From a virus: a stretch of 38,340 nt of DNA. The stretch is taken from positions 1-38,340 of IMG/VR virus record IMGVR_UViG_3300036770_000738; one strand, written 5' to 3'. Positions within the stretch are counted from its first letter, which is position 1; each line of letters opens with the position of its first letter. A model generated the notes under the pieces. That model searched no databases. It was not told where the DNA came from and worked only from the letters and a program-made list of their open reading frames with translations. The translations under genes were made by a program, and so were the position numbers. Below are positions 8,922 through 26,888 of the stretch, in pieces.

Positions 8922-9116
8922 ATGCATTACTATCTTCGTCATCCCGTTCACGGGACCAAGGTGGCTATTTCCGATATGGAAGTAGCTTTGGATTCAGAAA
9001 ACGGGTGGGAAGAGTACGACCCCACGGACCCGGCGGTACAAGAGGAAACTTTTGTGCCGTCGGACTCCGTTTCGGCTAACAACCAGTTAAGGGTGCGCCG
9101 TAAGAGGAAGGAATAA
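8922..9116 (+). CDS. Small hypothetical virion-region protein, 64 residues
   Basis: It starts two bases after the previous stop, and its TAA overlaps the next ATG (taATGg). The sequence opens MHYYLRHPVHGTKVAISDME and includes a GWEEYDP motif, common in short phage proteins encoded before head-completion genes, and ends with the basic tail RRKRKE. The function is unknown. The tight packing between two virion genes argues that it is real. Confidence 0.6.
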   Translation: MHYYLRHPVHGTKVAISDMEVALDSENGWEEYDPTDPAVQEETFVPSDSVSANNQLRVRRKRKE

Positions 9117-9829
9117 TGGCCGTCACCGCCCAAAACTTGATCAACAAGTCGCTGCGACTGCTGGGCGTTTTGGCTTCGGGTGAAACGACCACGGCGGCGG
9201 AAGCTGAAGACTCGTTATACAGCTTGAACTCAATCATCGACTCGCTGTCGGCGAACCCACAGTATTATTTTTGCACGCAGGCCGAACAGTTTACGTTGGT
9301 CAACGGGCAGAGCACGTACACGATCGGTAACGATCCCAACACGTCGCCAGCGGCTAACTTTGTCGCAGCGCGACCGATTCGCATTGTGGGCGCGTTCGTG
9401 CGCATCAGCAACGTCGACACGCCGCTTGCGCTGATTACCGAGCAGTATTGGACTAACATTGCGGCTAAAGCCACGAGCGGTACGCCGACAAAGCTCTTGT
9501 ACCGACCTAACGTGCCGTACGGGCAGATCGTGCTGTACCCCACGCCTAACGCAGCGGTGCCGATCTTTATCAAAGCCGAGCGGATGATTGGCGAATACGC
9601 CACGCTGACTTCGACGCAGTACCTGCCGCCGGGGTATCAGCGGCTGCTTGAGCTGTCACTCGCTATGGAGTTAGCACCGGAGTATGGGACGCAAGTTAAA
9701 CCGGAGATTTTGGCGAACCTTCGTGCGGATCTGGATAGCCTTATCCGTACCAACATTCAGCCCTTGCCGGTTAACAAGACTGATAACTTCCCCAACTCGA
9801 ACACCACGTTCAATATGCCCCCGATCTAG
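9116..9829 (+). CDS. Head-completion / tail accessory factor, P22 gp4-like (copy 1)
   Basis: The 237-residue protein has an N-terminal helical bundle (QNLINKSLRLLGVLASGETT; EDSLYSLNSIIDSLSANP), the FTLVNGQSTYTIG strand, and a C-terminal helical part with LPPGYQRLLELSLAMELAPE. These are traits of the gp4 family, which assembles under the portal ring and closes the head for the tail. It is followed by a second protein of the same plan at 9837. The gp10-like gene lies downstream, preserving P22 gene order. Confidence 0.85.
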   Translation: MAVTAQNLINKSLRLLGVLASGETTTAAEAEDSLYSLNSIIDSLSANPQYYFCTQAEQFTLVNGQSTYTIGNDPNTSPAANFVAARPIRIVGAFVRISNVDTPLALITEQYWTNIAAKATSGTPTKLLYRPNVPYGQIVLYPTPNAAVPIFIKAERMIGEYATLTSTQYLPPGYQRLLELSLAMELAPEYGTQVKPEILANLRADLDSLIRTNIQPLPVNKTDNFPNSNTTFNMPPI

Positions 9830-9836
9830 GTGATTT

Positions 9837-10622
9837 ATGCCAACGACTCGTGAATTGTTAGGTGGCGCGCATCGACTGCTGGGGTTAGTGAACTCAGGTA
9901 ACGTGCTGCCTGAAGCGGTCTACCAAGATAACTTGGTGGCGCTTAATCAAATGGTTGATAGCTGGAGCACCGAGCGGCTTGCAGTGTTCTGTACACAAGA
10001 CCAAACGTATTTTTGGGATCCCGGCTTTCGTATTCGTACACTAGGCCCGACGGGCGATTTTGTGTTTATTTTGGCTAATCAGTCTGACACGCCAATTGTT
10101 ACGCAAGGCGAAGACTACATTGGCGTTGACGACGCTACGACTCAAAGGCCGATTTTGTTAGAAGATTCCACGTATTTTCGTGACCCTAGCAACAATGTGT
10201 CATTTGGTATTCGGTTTATTAACCAATTGCAGTACAACAACATTGCGGTCAAGACGGTTACTAGCACCTATCCGCAGGTGATGTTTGTCAATATGACTTT
10301 CCCAAACATCACGTTAGCGGTCTACCCAGTGCCAAACAAAATGCTGGAGTTTCACTTTATCTCGGTGCAGCCCTTAGCAAACCCCGCCACACTTGAAACT
10401 GAACTTGCCTTTCCGCCAGGTTACTTGCGCGCGTTTCGCTATAACTTGGCGCTTGAGCTTGCCCCCGAGTTTAACGTGGAACCTTCAAGCGAAGTGCGAC
10501 GAATTGCCATGTATAGCAAACGTAATTTGAAGCGCATCAACAATCCTGATGACATTATGGCAATGCCGTATAGCGTCATTGCCCGCCGTAACCGCTACAA
10601 CATCTTTGCAGGGAACTACTAA
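9837..10622 (+). CDS. Head-completion / tail accessory factor, P22 gp4-like (copy 2)
   Basis: This 261-residue protein parallels its upstream neighbour: GAHRLLGLVNSGNVLPEAVY, then LNQMVDSWSTERLAVFCTQD, the TYFWDPGFRIRTLG strand, and near the C-terminus FPPGYLRAFRYNLALELAPE, matching LPPGYQRLLELSLAMELAPE in copy 1. The C-terminal tail (RRNRYNIFAGNY) differs. It is probably a diverged duplicate that forms a second ring layer or a specialised connector. Identity is low enough that the duplication looks ancient. Confidence 0.78.
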   Translation: MPTTRELLGGAHRLLGLVNSGNVLPEAVYQDNLVALNQMVDSWSTERLAVFCTQDQTYFWDPGFRIRTLGPTGDFVFILANQSDTPIVTQGEDYIGVDDATTQRPILLEDSTYFRDPSNNVSFGIRFINQLQYNNIAVKTVTSTYPQVMFVNMTFPNITLAVYPVPNKMLEFHFISVQPLANPATLETELAFPPGYLRAFRYNLALELAPEFNVEPSSEVRRIAMYSKRNLKRINNPDDIMAMPYSVIARRNRYNIFAGNY

Positions 10623-15003: not shown

Positions 15004-15339
15004 ATGGCAGTTAGCGTAAAAGTTCTAATCCCCGCCAAGATCGCAGAGGCTGCGCAGACAACGCAGTACACTGCGACGAACGTAGCGGCCATCATTGACA
15101 AGTTTACCGCGACGAACTACAGCAGCGCCGCCGCCACTTTGTCCGTCAATTTGGTGACGGCCTTTGACAACGCGGGCAACCAGAACTTGATCATCAAAGC
15201 CAAGACCCTGCTGCCGTCGGAGACCTACACGTTTCCTGAGCTCGTGGGCCAGATCCTCGCGCCAGGCGGGTACATCTCGACGCTCGCTGGCACAGGGTCT
15301 GCCATCAACATCCGCTGCTCGGGGCGTGAAGTGTCGTGA
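15004..15339 (+). CDS. Hypothetical virion-region protein, 111 residues
   Basis: The protein reads as a compact beta sandwich (QTTQYTATNVAAIIDKFTAT, AATLSVNLVTAFDNAGNQN, SETYTFPELVGQIL) with no signal peptide or enzyme motif. Ribosome site is aaggtgacgt before ATG. I know similar short proteins from phage tail regions without assigned functions. Its TGA overlaps the GTG start of the cupin-SET gene, so the two are translationally coupled. Confidence 0.6.
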   Translation: MAVSVKVLIPAKIAEAAQTTQYTATNVAAIIDKFTATNYSSAAATLSVNLVTAFDNAGNQNLIIKAKTLLPSETYTFPELVGQILAPGGYISTLAGTGSAINIRCSGREVS

Positions 15340-16208
15340 CGCAGTTAGCCGAAATCGGCGCGCGCGCGCTGCAAGCCTTTGGCAGTGTGGAAGAGGCCGA
15401 AGAGGCCATGTTGCCTATGCCGCAGGCCGAGTGTCCGGTCACGCACTATTTCGGCCCCGGTATTGCCATCCGCGAAGTGTTTTTGCCGGCGGGCACGCTG
15501 GCAGTTGGGCACAAGCAAAAGTTCGCGCAACTAAACATCATGCTGCGCGGCAAGGTCGTCATGCTCCAAGATGACGGTACGTTACGGACTGTTACCGCGC
15601 CGTTGATTTACACAGGTCAGCCAGGGCGCAAGATCGGCTACGTGCTTGAAGACACCGTATGGCAGAACGTCTACGCGACAGACTTGACCGACGCAGACGC
15701 CGTAGAAGAAGCGTTTATTGAAAAGAGCGATGCTTGGCACAGCCATCAGCTTGCAGACTTGGCGGAGCGGCAATTTGGCCGCGCTGCCGATCGACAGGAT
15801 TTTCAGTGTTTGTTGATTGAGTACGGCATCGACGCCGAAACCGTACGCGCACAGTCAGAAAACACCGACGATCAAATCTCGGTCATCAGCGGCAACACTC
15901 GCATTCACGACTCAGAGATCGAGGGCAAAGGGTTGTTTTTAACGTCTCCCGTTAAAGCCGGCGACGTAATTATGCCGGCGCGGATTGCCGGTAAGCGTAC
16001 GCAAGCAGGGCGATACGTAAACCATTCGTTGACGCCCAACGCCAAGATGGCCCTGCGTGAAAACGGAGACATTGATTTGGTCGCAGTGCGTGATTTATCA
16101 GGGTGCAAAGGCGGTAGCGTAGGAGAAGAACTTACGATAGATTATCGCCACGCGCTCGCCCTTTCGGGGGTTCAGTCTATCTCTCAGGAGCCATCATGTC
16201 AGGAATAG
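15336..16208 (+). CDS. Cupin-SET domain fusion, putative protein lysine methyltransferase
   Basis: The 290-residue protein starts at GTG 15336, overlapping the upstream stop. Residues about 35-115 look like a cupin barrel (HYFGPGIAIREVFLPAGTLA, LNIMLRGKVVMLQDDG), and 118-178 form a helical linker. Residues about 180-272 carry SET hallmarks: EGKGLF at 196-201, NHSLTPN at 229-235 (the NHS..PN motif) and GEELTIDY at 263-270. SET proteins transfer methyl groups from S-adenosylmethionine to lysines. No post-SET cysteine cluster is visible. It lies between tail and ejection genes, so a virion protein or injected host target is possible, but the substrate is unknown. Confidence 0.8.
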   Translation: MTQLAEIGARALQAFGSVEEAEEAMLPMPQAECPVTHYFGPGIAIREVFLPAGTLAVGHKQKFAQLNIMLRGKVVMLQDDGTLRTVTAPLIYTGQPGRKIGYVLEDTVWQNVYATDLTDADAVEEAFIEKSDAWHSHQLADLAERQFGRAADRQDFQCLLIEYGIDAETVRAQSENTDDQISVISGNTRIHDSEIEGKGLFLTSPVKAGDVIMPARIAGKRTQAGRYVNHSLTPNAKMALRENGDIDLVAVRDLSGCKGGSVGEELTIDYRHALALSGVQSISQEPSCQE

Positions 16209-16918
16209 CCACCGCCATTGTCGGCAGCGCCGTAATTGGAGGCGCCGTTGCATCACGCGGCGCTAGTAAGGCCGCTAAAGCACAAACGCAAGCCGCTGAT
16301 GAAGCCGCCCGCGTTCAACGCGAGATCTTCGAGCGCCAGACTGAATTGCAAGAGCCGTTCCGTCAGGCGGGCATTACGTCGCAGAACGAGCTGCTGCGGA
16401 TGCTAGGGCTGGGCGGGGAGCCTGGCACACCGGGCTATGGCGCGATCGGCGCGCCGTTTACCGCTGAACAGATGCAGACCGACCCCGGCTACGCGTTTCG
16501 GCTTGCCGAAGGCGAGCGAGCATTGGAGCGTATGCAGGCCGCTCGCGGGCAGTTGCTCGGCGGCGGTGCGATCCGCGCAGGCGTGCGGTACGGGCAGGAG
16601 ATGGGCTCGCAAGAGTACATGAACGCCTTTAACCGCGCGCAAGCTTTGATGGGCACGCGACTCAGCACGCTGGGCAGTCTTTATGGCGCAGGCCAAGCCG
16701 CAGCGCAGCAGGTGGCTGGTCAGGCTGGTCAGATGGGCACCAACGTCAGTAATCTATTGATGGGTGCTGGACAAGCTCGCGCCTCGGGCTATCTAGGTCA
16801 AGCTAACGCGCTCTCGCAGGCGTTGGGGCAAGGCGCGATGGGCTTTGGACTTTACCGAGGCGGTTACTTTAATCCGCCGCCGGCAGCGGCTCCGCCCGTT
16901 CCACCGGCAGGAGGCTAA
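16196..16918 (+). CDS. Ejection / DNA transfer protein (P22 gp7-like)
   Basis: The 240-residue protein starts at ATG 16196, inside the end of the SET gene, with a strong ribosome site (caggag). The opening MSGIATAIVGSAVIGGAVAS and the Ala/Gln-rich helices (KAAKAQTQAADEAARVQREI) are typical of phage DNA-transfer proteins of the gp7/p32 type. The region GYAFRLAEGERALERMQAAR and the Gly/Ala-rich C-terminal half with AGQ repeats also fit. It would be packaged and ejected to help DNA cross the periplasm. Two further ejection candidates follow. Confidence 0.82.
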   Translation: MSGIATAIVGSAVIGGAVASRGASKAAKAQTQAADEAARVQREIFERQTELQEPFRQAGITSQNELLRMLGLGGEPGTPGYGAIGAPFTAEQMQTDPGYAFRLAEGERALERMQAARGQLLGGGAIRAGVRYGQEMGSQEYMNAFNRAQALMGTRLSTLGSLYGAGQAAAQQVAGQAGQMGTNVSNLLMGAGQARASGYLGQANALSQALGQGAMGFGLYRGGYFNPPPAAAPPVPPAGG

Positions 16919-16920
16919 TC

Positions 16921-18105
16921 ATGGCGGTCATTGGTGCAACACAATTAGAGCCCGTCAACGTCCTTGGGCAGTACGTACAAGGGCTAGAGGCGGGTCGCGC
17001 TGCGCGAGCGCAACGGCAAAAAGAAGCGCAAGCCATGCAGCTTCAGAACATGCTCATGGGCGCAACGTCCGAACAATTGGAAAGCCCTGAGTTTATTAAC
17101 CGGCTAACGGTGATGCCTGGCGGCGCTGAAGTCGCTAAGACGCTATCCGAGTCGGCTGCTGCGCAGCGCACGGCACGCAAAGAGGACTTGGACATTGCGA
17201 TCAAGCAAGGTGAAGTCATTGCTCGCGAAGCCGGCGCCTTTTTAGATGACCCTGCTTCACTTAGCAAAGCGACCATTGACGCATGGGCGCAAGGTGCGGT
17301 TCAGCGCGGCTTACTGTCACAAGAAGCCTATGCGCGGTTTCAGCAGTTGCCTGACGATCCTAATGTGCTAGGCCCAGCGATGCAGCGATTGCAAACGCAA
17401 GGGTTAAGTCTTGCCGATCAGCTTCGCTACCAGCGCGTGACACCGGAAGCCATGCTGCCGTACGAGCAAGCCTTGTCACCAGACGTTGAGGCGCAAAAGA
17501 TTCGGATTGCTGGTGCTGGCGCGTCTCGCACTACTATCCAAAATTTGCCAGCAGGCAAAAAGTTTAGTGAGACGCTTGGCGAACGGGCTGCATCACGGCT
17601 TGATGATCTTCGCACTAAAGCTGAATCTGCACGCAACACGTTGCAAACTTCAGGACAACTTCTGCCCTTGTTGGATGACCCCAATTTTATTTCAGGCACG
17701 TTGGCTAATGCGCGGCTTGCCGTGGCAAAAGCTGTGGGTATTGACGTTTCGGCAACTGAAGCATACTTCGCGGGTATCGGTCAACAAGTGGCTGAACGCA
17801 TCACGGCCTTTGGTGCAGGCACGGGTCTTTCGGACGCTGACCGCGAGTTTGCAAAGAAGATTGCGGGCGGTGAAGAGACCCTTACTGTCGATGCGATCCG
17901 TCGGATTATTCGCATCAACAATGAATCAGCGCGTAACGTTATCGGTAACTATAACGAAGAGCGCACGCGTTTAGGCAAAAAAGACCCTGAAGTGTTGGAT
18001 TATTTCCCTGAACTAGGCATAACTCGTCAAGTTAGACGCACCGGCACGGTCAATGGTCGCCGTGTAGTGGAGTATTCTGACGGGAGCATCGAGTATGCCG
18101 ATTGA
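16921..18105 (+). CDS. Internal virion / ejection protein (gp20-position)
   Basis: The 394-residue, mainly helical protein is rich in Ala, Gln and Glu. Its N-terminus (VNVLGQYVQGLEAGRAARAQ then KEAQAMQLQNML) resembles phage internal virion proteins. The C-terminal part has GIGQQVAERITAFGAGTGLS and DREFAKKIAGGEETLTVDAI, common in phage ejection proteins. No lysozyme motif is visible. Position between gp7-like and the larger third protein mirrors P22 gp7-gp20-gp16. It overlaps the next gene by 11 bases. Confidence 0.75.
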   Translation: MAVIGATQLEPVNVLGQYVQGLEAGRAARAQRQKEAQAMQLQNMLMGATSEQLESPEFINRLTVMPGGAEVAKTLSESAAAQRTARKEDLDIAIKQGEVIAREAGAFLDDPASLSKATIDAWAQGAVQRGLLSQEAYARFQQLPDDPNVLGPAMQRLQTQGLSLADQLRYQRVTPEAMLPYEQALSPDVEAQKIRIAGAGASRTTIQNLPAGKKFSETLGERAASRLDDLRTKAESARNTLQTSGQLLPLLDDPNFISGTLANARLAVAKAVGIDVSATEAYFAGIGQQVAERITAFGAGTGLSDADREFAKKIAGGEETLTVDAIRRIIRINNESARNVIGNYNEERTRLGKKDPEVLDYFPELGITRQVRRTGTVNGRRVVEYSDGSIEYAD

Positions 18106-20041
18106 TCCGAACAAAGTTAAGTGGGACGAGCCTGCTGTAACCGTCACTAAAATTGGCGGTCAAGAGATTGACCCTACTCAAGTAACTTGGGATACGGCGG
18201 CAACTCGCGGAGCTGTAGGTGAAGAAGCACCTGTAGGCCGCACTTGGGCGCAGACAGGCCGAGAAGCTATCGCTAACATCGGCCCTAGCGCGCTGGAGTT
18301 TGGGCGTAGCATGTTGACGGCTGTTTCGCAGCCGCGCGAGACCTTAGAGCAGCTTGGCGAAGTGCTGACGGGCGCCTACGCACGGTTCATTCCGCAAGAG
18401 TGGATGGCGCGACCAGACAAGGCCCAAGAGTTTATCGACAAGGCCAACGCAGTCGGCGGCGTTTACAAAGACCGCTATGGCAGCGTCGAGGCGCTCAAGA
18501 ACACCATCGCTACCGATCCCGTAGGTTTCTTAGGTGACGTGTCGACGTTGACCGGCGCGACCGCTGCGGCAACGCCAGGGCGCGTAGGCCGCGTGCTAGA
18601 GACCGCATCACGCTTTACAGATCCGGCGCGTGTTGTGACAGCACCGATCGGGATAGTTGGAGGCGCGGGCGTCAACGTGTTAGAACGCGTAGCGACAGGT
18701 CCAAAGGCTAACGTGCTGCTTGAAGCGGCAGAAGGTCGTGGGCCCGAGATTGTCAACATGCTGCGCGGGCAGACTGAGATTGTACCTGGCGTCACGCCAA
18801 CAGCCGGTGAAGCCGCATCGCCGCTGGGCGTGACGCGGTATTCGGCGCTACAAGAGTCTGCCGAGCGCGTGCTGCCGTCTCAATACTTGGCACGACGTCG
18901 TGACCAAGACGCGGCGCGAGTCGATGCTATTCGTCAGGTGGGCGGCACGCCTGTGCAGTTGGAAACAGCACGCAAGCTGCGTGACTCCACTGCCAAAACT
19001 AACTACGGCGCGGCGGGTAGAGAAGTGGTTGACGCTGACGAAGTGTTCACCGGCTTGCTAACGCGCCCGTCTATGGACCGCGTTATGGCTCGGGCTGCGA
19101 ACATTGCAGCGGAAAAAGGCCAGCCGTTTGTGGTAGGCCGCAATCTTCCCGAGCAGCGTACCGTTGTGCCGGAGCCTGGCATGGGCGGCATGGGCGTGAC
19201 GGGCCGCGAGGTCACTACGCCCGCACAGTTCGCGCAGTACCCCGTGCAAACTCTGCACTACATGAAAATGGCGTTCGATGATCTCATCAAAGATCCTGCG
19301 ACGTTTGGTATCGGTAAGACCGAAGCCGCCGCCATCACGGGCACGCGGGCTGAGTTTTTGAACTGGCTTGAAGGCAAAGCCGCTGGGTACAAAGGCGCAC
19401 GCGAGACGTTTGCCAAGCAAAGCGGCCCGATCAATCAGATGGAAGTGGGTCAGTTTTTGGAGAGCAAACTTACCTCGGCGCTGGAAGGCGAGCAAAAGCT
19501 ACGTCCTGCGGCGTTTGCGGGTGCAGTTGAATCAGCGCCGCAAACCATCCAGCGCGCTATCTTAGGCGCGCCGCGCTTCAAAAAGTTGTCTGACGTATTG
19601 ACGCCCGATCAGGTCAAGATTGTGGAAGACATCCGAAAAGACTTGGCGCGTCAAGCGGATTACCGCACGCAAGCTCGCGCAGCACGACCTATTGGCCCGA
19701 CCGCCGAGCGCGCAGGCACGGGGCTATTGGTCGAGGCCGTAGGCGGCGTGACCATGCCTACGCTGCTTAACCGCATCGCTACGGTCGCCAACGCTATCTC
19801 ACGGCGTTTGGCGGGCAAGATCGACCGCAAGCTATCTATTGAAATCGCGACCGAGATGTTGCGACCCGAACTTGCCGCGCAAGCCTTAGAGCAAGCAATG
19901 TCTCGCGCCGCAGGCGTGCAGACCGTGACGGGCGGCATCCGTCAAGCGGGTGGAATAGCTCAACGTGCAGCGACGCCGGCTGCGATGTTCACAAACGCGC
20001 TGGCTGAAGCTGAAGCGCGACAGAATCAAATGGCTCAGTAA
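18095..20041 (+). CDS. Large ejection protein (gp16-position)
   Basis: The 648-residue protein starts at ATG 18095 inside the upstream gene. A short repeat at the N-terminus (IDPNKVKWDEPAV and IDPTQVTWDTAAT) is often seen in phage internal proteins. Long helical stretches with Gly/Ala-rich segments follow (GDVSTLTGATAAATPGRVGR, residues about 148-167), and the C-terminus is Ala/Gln-rich. No enzyme motif can be assigned. Its place as last of three ejection candidates and its size match P22 gp16, which opens a path for DNA at the inner membrane. The assignment is by context. Confidence 0.72.
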   Translation: MPIDPNKVKWDEPAVTVTKIGGQEIDPTQVTWDTAATRGAVGEEAPVGRTWAQTGREAIANIGPSALEFGRSMLTAVSQPRETLEQLGEVLTGAYARFIPQEWMARPDKAQEFIDKANAVGGVYKDRYGSVEALKNTIATDPVGFLGDVSTLTGATAAATPGRVGRVLETASRFTDPARVVTAPIGIVGGAGVNVLERVATGPKANVLLEAAEGRGPEIVNMLRGQTEIVPGVTPTAGEAASPLGVTRYSALQESAERVLPSQYLARRRDQDAARVDAIRQVGGTPVQLETARKLRDSTAKTNYGAAGREVVDADEVFTGLLTRPSMDRVMARAANIAAEKGQPFVVGRNLPEQRTVVPEPGMGGMGVTGREVTTPAQFAQYPVQTLHYMKMAFDDLIKDPATFGIGKTEAAAITGTRAEFLNWLEGKAAGYKGARETFAKQSGPINQMEVGQFLESKLTSALEGEQKLRPAAFAGAVESAPQTIQRAILGAPRFKKLSDVLTPDQVKIVEDIRKDLARQADYRTQARAARPIGPTAERAGTGLLVEAVGGVTMPTLLNRIATVANAISRRLAGKIDRKLSIEIATEMLRPELAAQALEQAMSRAAGVQTVTGGIRQAGGIAQRAATPAAMFTNALAEAEARQNQMAQ

Positions 20042-26259: not shown

Positions 26260-26287
26260 CGGGGGTCGGCAACGGCCCCCGTCTTTT
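26260..26287 (+). terminator. Hairpin with T-rich tail before the methyltransferase gene
   Basis: Bases 26260-26267 (CGGGGGTC) pair with 26274-26281 (GGCCCCCG), 8 bp including one G-T pair, around a GGCAAC loop, followed by TCTTTT at 26282-26287. It resembles an intrinsic terminator, seven bases after the previous stop. The next ATG is only 7 bases after the stem. A good Shine-Dalgarno, GAGGAG at 26254-26259, lies immediately before the stem. Folding would place it 7 bases from ATG 26289, so it may instead be a translation-bridging hairpin. Confidence 0.6.
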
Positions 26288-26288
26288 G

Positions 26289-26888
26289 ATGCGAGTATTA
26301 GTGGCTTGTGAATTCTCTGGCACTGTGCGAAACGCGTTCCGCAAACGCGGGCACGATGCTATGTCTTGTGACCTGTTGCCGAGCGAAACGGAAGGCCCGC
26401 ACTATCAAGGCGACGTGCGTGACGTGCTGCAAGATGGTTGGGACTTGATGATCGCTCACCCACCTTGCACATATTTGACGAATAGCGGCGTAACGTGGTT
26501 ACACCGTGACCCGACGCGATGGCAAAAGCTCGATGATGCAGCGGAGTTTTTTAAAATGCTGCTTGATGCTCCCATCCCGCGAATTGCGATTGAAAACCTG
26601 ATCATGCACAAGTACGCCAAAGAGCGTATTGGCGGCGTGAAGCAGTCACAAGTGATTCAGCCGTGGATGTTTGGACATCCTGAGTCAAAGGCAACGTGCT
26701 TGTGGCTCAAGAATTTGCCGACGCTCAGGGAAACGAAAAACGTAAAAGAGGAGATGTTAAAGCTACCGGACAGCGAACGGCAAAGATTACATTGGCTTCC
26801 GCCGTCTGCCGACCGATGGAAACTTCGTAGTACAACTTATTCAGGCATCGCTGAAGCGATGGCAGAGCAATGGCAATACTTTGGTTAG
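26289..26888 (+). CDS. DNA cytosine methyltransferase-like protein
   Basis: The 199-residue protein (ATG 26289) has motif I-like VACEFSGTVRNAF at residues 5-17, a GDVRDVL loop at 41-47, motif IV with PPC at 58-60 (AHPPCTYLTNSG) and ENL at 102-104 in place of the ENV motif. These are C5-cytosine methyltransferase signatures, but it is about half the usual length and lacks a clear target-recognition domain. It could protect phage DNA from host restriction. Some short homologues act with partners or on free nucleotides, so the exact substrate is open. It overlaps the polymerase gene by 19 bases. Confidence 0.75.
   Translation: MRVLVACEFSGTVRNAFRKRGHDAMSCDLLPSETEGPHYQGDVRDVLQDGWDLMIAHPPCTYLTNSGVTWLHRDPTRWQKLDDAAEFFKMLLDAPIPRIAIENLIMHKYAKERIGGVKQSQVIQPWMFGHPESKATCLWLKNLPTLRETKNVKEEMLKLPDSERQRLHWLPPSADRWKLRSTTYSGIAEAMAEQWQYFG

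Follow-up and report, generated by a model that had tools for sequence, protein, structure and literature searches.

The window analysed here, a 38,340-nucleotide stretch of viral DNA (IMG/VR record IMGVR_UViG_3300036770_000738), carries within a P22-like virion-morphogenesis module a gene whose product had been read, from sequence alone, as a cupin fused to a SET domain. To our knowledge, bacteria are without histone tails of the eukaryotic kind. The locus raises the question of whether a bacterial virus encodes a working lysine methyltransferase, and of what such an enzyme would act upon among virion and ejection genes.

A cupin-fold domain and a compact SET domain in one reading frame

Three parts were confirmed in the product of the open reading frame at 15336-16208: a cupin fold at the N-terminus, a compact SET domain at the C-terminus and a helical linker joining the two. 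They are delineated as follows.

15336..16208, + strand: cupin-SET fusion gene; 290 aa; start codon GTG; matches PHROG 34170 (E=3.2e-88)
15384..15740, + strand: cupin-fold (RmlC-like) domain, residues ~17-135; matches phrog_12032/24280, named "short tail fiber/adhesin"
15741..15875, + strand: helical linker, residues 136-180, by DSSP of the AlphaFold2 model
15876..16175, + strand: compact SET domain, residues ~181-280, by Pfam, PDB profile matches and Foldseek
15924..15932, + strand: GKG, the SAM-binding GxG motif (G197, G199), invariant in 94 relatives
16020..16040, + strand: NHSLTPN motif, residues 229-235 (N229, H230, P234, N235), by conservation in 94 relatives
16125..16145, + strand: EELTIDY motif, residues 264-270, with the presumed catalytic Y270; E265 and Y270 invariant

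Relatives were collected by scanning viral contigs, which gave 29 loci at first and later 80, of 390 stretches encoding relatives, and genome contigs, which gave 13 loci with relatives, MAGs and Burkholderiaceae among them. Two sets were drawn up: an alignment of 24 relatives (A1) and a conservation set of 94 non-redundant full-length cupin-SET fusions. An AlphaFold2 model of the protein, built with 24 sequences, reached a pLDDT of 89.5 and a pTM of 0.84, and the structural comparison that the sequence-only reading had proposed could thus be made for both halves. In Foldseek searches of the PDB, the C-terminal half matched the SET methyltransferases SETD8, MLL1, ASH1L and PBCV-1 vSET with E-values of ~1e-5 to 1e-4, and the N-terminal half matched TM1459, ectoine synthase and other cupins.

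The assignment of the SET half was corroborated by profile and conservation analyses. The Pfam SET family (PF00856) matched the protein at 27.4 bits, above the curated cut-off of 22.4, and matched 24 of 24 relatives in A1 when these were scanned singly. The three signatures picked out beforehand (EGKGLF, at residues 196-201, NHSLTPN and GEELTIDY) correspond to the GxG, NHxxPN and E-x-T-x-x-Y motifs, all of which are present, with key residues 98-100% conserved across the 94 relatives. No substitution occurs at G197, G199, R221, G225, N229, E265 or Y270; H230 is retained in 93 of 94 (98.9%), and P234 and N235 in 92 of 94 (97.9%). Loss of the NHS..PN or GEEL..DY residues in relatives, which had been named as grounds for abandoning the SET assignment, is thus not what we found, the key residues of both motifs being kept at 97.9-100%. 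For the other ground named, a predicted structure lacking the SET pseudoknot, the analysis covered overall fold similarity, in which the model matches SET enzymes. Separately placed SET proteins (L042, L043, L188 and L196) also retain the SAM-binding residues and the tyrosine. Between relatives, the NG86 dN/dS of the SET half was ~0.05-0.23 where computable, with synonymous sites saturated in several comparisons; these ratios show that purifying selection acts on this half. The combination of invariant active-site residues and low dN/dS indicates that the domain has been maintained together with its active site, and we predict that the cupin-SET protein is very probably catalytically active.

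SETD8, MLL1 and vSET of PBCV-1 share with the cupin-SET protein its predicted fold and the GxG, NHxxPN and E-x-T-x-x-Y motifs; the phage protein differs from them in its much shorter SET-I, its fusion to a cupin and its setting in a bacterial virus. A full-length SET-I, the segment from GxG to NHxxPN, is usual in histone methyltransferases and is not defining for Pfam SET. It is absent here, the segment being ~35 residues shorter than that of MLL1: in the PDB profile comparison, the two aligned blocks are separated by 6 residues in the cupin-SET profile versus 41 in MLL1, so SET-I is much reduced and substrate binding must differ from that of characterised enzymes. The helical linker might compensate for the reduced SET-I. 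In L188, where SET and cupin are fused in reversed order, a stretch of sequence similar to this linker precedes the SET domain, and the linker may therefore belong to the SET module.

In the N-terminal half, the barrel of the model spans roughly residues 35-113, close to the 35-115 first assigned to it, and phrog_12032 (E=4.2e-30) and phrog_24280 were matched. A conserved metal-cupin motif was not found across the relatives: H59 is invariant in A1, the second histidine is variable, and Pfam Cupin_2 matched only 2 of 24 members. Given the unconserved motif and these few matches, "cupin fold" is a safer label than "cupin enzyme".

The slot upstream of the ejection genes

The gene lies in a P22-like module that runs portal, scaffold, coat, two gp4-like proteins, gp10-like (Hc3), fibre-like genes, a 111-aa gene, cupin-SET, a gp7-like ejection protein and two large genes at the gp20 and gp16 positions. 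Its immediate neighbours are as follows.

15004..15339, + strand: 111-aa gene directly upstream of the fusion; no confident family
16196..16918, + strand: P22 gp7-like DNA-ejection protein; 240 aa, 2 lysines; phrog_598 (E=6e-34)
16921..18105, + strand: probable second ejection protein (gp20/T7 gp15 position), by gene order only; no PHROG match
18095..20041, + strand: probable third ejection protein (gp16 position), by gene order only; no confident match

The fusion shares 4 bp with the 111-aa gene before it and 13 bp with the gp7-like gene that follows. It had been placed between a glycine-rich fibre gene and the gp7-like gene; the latter is indeed its downstream neighbour and the glycine-rich gene does lie upstream, but the 111-aa gene intervenes, and in many loci of close relatives it is often co-conserved directly upstream of the fusion. 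Elsewhere in the window, the adjacent genes at 9116-9829 and 9837-10622 share a match to phrog_12985 and a weak one to head-tail adaptor Ad3 (P22 gp4-like), and are probably a tandem duplication of an adaptor gene. A DNA methyltransferase family gene (26286-26888, phrog_757) has a nucleotidyltransferase-like gene and a DNA polymerase as neighbours.

The search for the fusion and its neighbours in other phages revealed a tighter link to the ejection module than had been claimed, one that holds with or without SET. A gp7-like gene lies directly downstream of the cupin in 178 of 204 loci (122/137 with SET and 56/67 without), the remainder including some contigs that end at that point, and the commonest offsets between the two genes are -12 and -3 bases. 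The fibre-like genes upstream vary among loci; the cupin gene tracks the ejection gene instead. Stand-alone SET genes near cupin genes were found in none of 205 loci.

Among named phages, the fusion is carried by Rhodoferax phage P26218, Pseudoalteromonas phage PH1 and an uncultured podovirus. P26218 gp30 and PH1 gp49 belong to PHROG 34170 and are likewise cupin-SET proteins encoded directly upstream of a gp7-like gene. Members of this family are annotated as hypothetical or of unknown function, apart from one uncultured entry named "pbcV-1 histone H3-lys 27 methyltransferase structure". Phage SET proteins are thus already present in databases (PHROG 34170 and 28741, and BFVD entries). Our literature search, with most subscription journals outside its coverage, found nothing direct on phage SET proteins or on a podophage cupin virion protein. 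The cupin half belongs to a phage family that occurs with and without SET: the phrog_12032/24280 proteins of Vibrio phages VvAW1, VPMS1 and 234P9 have a homologous cupin and share the slot before the gp7-like gene, but lack SET.

In the model podophages, the corresponding slot is occupied by gene 14 in P22 (order 10-26-14-7-20-16) and by gene 13 in T7 (order 12-13-14-15-16), P22 gp7 and T7 gp14 being treated as counterparts (PMC8954989). T7 gp13 (phrog_308; Pfam Phage_T7_Gp13, "probable scaffold") and P22 gp14 (Pfam DUF2824) share the position upstream of the ejection genes; they appear GNAT-like and are not SET proteins, have no cupin and are not homologous to the cupin-SET protein. The latter matched neither phrog_308 nor phrog_651, and its likeness to them is positional only.

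Enzyme domains joined to the same cupin

The same cupin was found in three enzyme arrangements. Besides cupin-SET, a single contig encodes SET followed by cupin in one reading frame (L188:6104-6898), and two loci, L186:7461-8303 and L288:5001-5840, encode the cupin preceded by a GNAT domain in the same protein, with a mutual identity of 57%. These GNAT-cupin genes sit between a tail-tube-like gene and further late genes. In a further locus (L172), GNAT and cupin are encoded by separate genes with a 4-bp overlap. The idea that a GNAT gene accompanies every SET-less cupin was rejected, L172, L186 and L288 being the only cases found in a search of limited reach, its GNAT profile having been built from just two sequences. 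In a phylogeny of 114 cupin domains (a short alignment of 135 columns, unevenly sampled), the SET label requires 7 changes, with gains indistinguishable from losses, and at least 4 of them are forced by well-supported branches; PH1, with SET, is for example sister to VvAW1, without it. Enzyme domains that could modify proteins have therefore been joined to the cupin more than once, which makes it look like a platform for such enzymes beside the ejection genes.

The GNAT half of L186 matched phrog_4177 (1.3e-24) and, with E=3.7e-4, the internal virion protein family phrog_308, which T7 gp13 itself matches at 1.1e-42; direct BLASTP of T7 gp13 against this GNAT half gave no match. A profile of the L186 and L288 GNAT halves retrieved N-alpha-acetyltransferases from the PDB at E=0.0023. 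For P22 gp14, a head-morphogenesis protein (L036:8911-9366), the best PDB matches of the structural model were nearly all GNAT acetyltransferases (best E=1.1e-3), and its sequence gave only a weak glyoxalase match against the PDB. With a pLDDT of 58.6, the model is of low confidence, and the GNAT-like character of gp14 is a lead, not proof. That gp14 might be a homologue of the cupin was rejected, since it is a DUF2824 protein. A broader proposal, possible though doubtful, is that the slot before the ejection genes holds an exchangeable protein-modifying enzyme that would covalently mature injected proteins or assembly partners; this enzyme would be a GNAT in T7 gp13, P22 gp14 and the GNAT-cupin fusions and a SET domain in cupin-SET.

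Candidate substrates and competing explanations

To delineate possible substrates, we searched the virion proteins for lysines that were invariant in SET phages and confined to them. The sequence-only reading had put forward a coat, scaffold or ejection protein as one target, which found no support here. No SET-specific invariant lysine was detected in the coat, scaffold, gp10-like and 111-aa proteins, nor in the gp20- and gp16-like proteins, both of which diverge too fast. As a universal substrate, gp7 was rejected for want of a conserved lysine, and the 251-aa gp7-like ejection protein of the SET phage L058 contains no lysine at all; gp7-like proteins are generally lysine-poor. A lysine of a gp4-like protein is kept in 60 of 61 SET phages (98%), but also in all SET-less phages. 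Self-methylation at the invariant K130 was likewise discarded, as the residue is absent from the sequences of the separate SET-bearing lineage L042/L043. With no lysine tracking SET in these proteins, the simplest version of a virion substrate is removed; methylation may instead fall on variable sites or on a host protein.

Our best explanation, to which we assign about an even chance, is that cupin-SET is a predicted phage lysine methyltransferase mounted on a cupin-fold assembly protein and that, during assembly, it methylates a protein of the virion or ejection core. The cupin half would fill the T7 gp13/P22 gp14 position, probably as an assembly or chaperone module without enzymatic activity. 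The SET half, for which we infer methyltransferase activity, would bind SAM through GxG and N229/H230 and use Y270 for lysine methylation. Encoded beside and overlapping gp7, cupin-SET would most likely work late, as virions or ejection cores are assembled, and methylate a protein of one or the other; a virion or assembly protein is tentatively suggested as the substrate. The many cupin relatives without SET count against this explanation, as do the lack of a SET-specific invariant lysine and the shortened SET-I. In its favour, methylated lysines were described in 2026 on structural proteins of Cellulophaga phages, in cells and in free virions, the phages being described as encoding no methyltransferase of their own (PMC13288928).

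The same study reports that methylation of Cellulophaga host proteins, EF-Tu included, rises after phage infection (PMC13288928), and this, together with the failure to find a lysine conserved specifically with SET among the virion proteins compared, speaks for an active SET methyltransferase with a host substrate (for example a translation factor, a ribosomal protein or an envelope protein), acting either late in the infected cell or after it is injected along with the ejection proteins. The ejection slot would then be relevant only for timing or delivery. Yet the slot of the cupin is unchanged where SET is missing, which points to assembly, and packaging of the cupin-SET protein is putative; we regard a host substrate as rather unlikely. 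The PHROG 12032/24280 names and the fibre-like genes upstream would instead fit a short tail fibre or adhesin of the virion, whose SET half would either modify fibre and adhesin proteins or be exposed on the particle surface. Since the PHROG label is automatic, with no experiment found behind it, and the cupin gene follows the ejection gene and not the variable fibre-like genes, we consider this improbable. Slightly more improbable still is that the SET fold persists as a non-catalytic SAM- or protein-binding module: its compactness and reduced SET-I would be in keeping with such a role, but all 94 relatives keep the SAM-binding residues and the tyrosine, as do L042, L043, L188 and L196.

A widespread family of short-tailed phages thus carries its own predicted lysine methyltransferase within the virion-morphogenesis operon, and cupin-SET phages may place chemical tags on virion proteins or on those of the host cell. 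Since virion methylation was reported only recently, in phages described as lacking a methyltransferase, a phage-borne lysine methyltransferase is timely. For T7 gp13 and P22 gp14, assembly proteins known for a long time but poorly understood in function, the link by position and by fusion suggests that they may likewise be protein-modifying enzymes.
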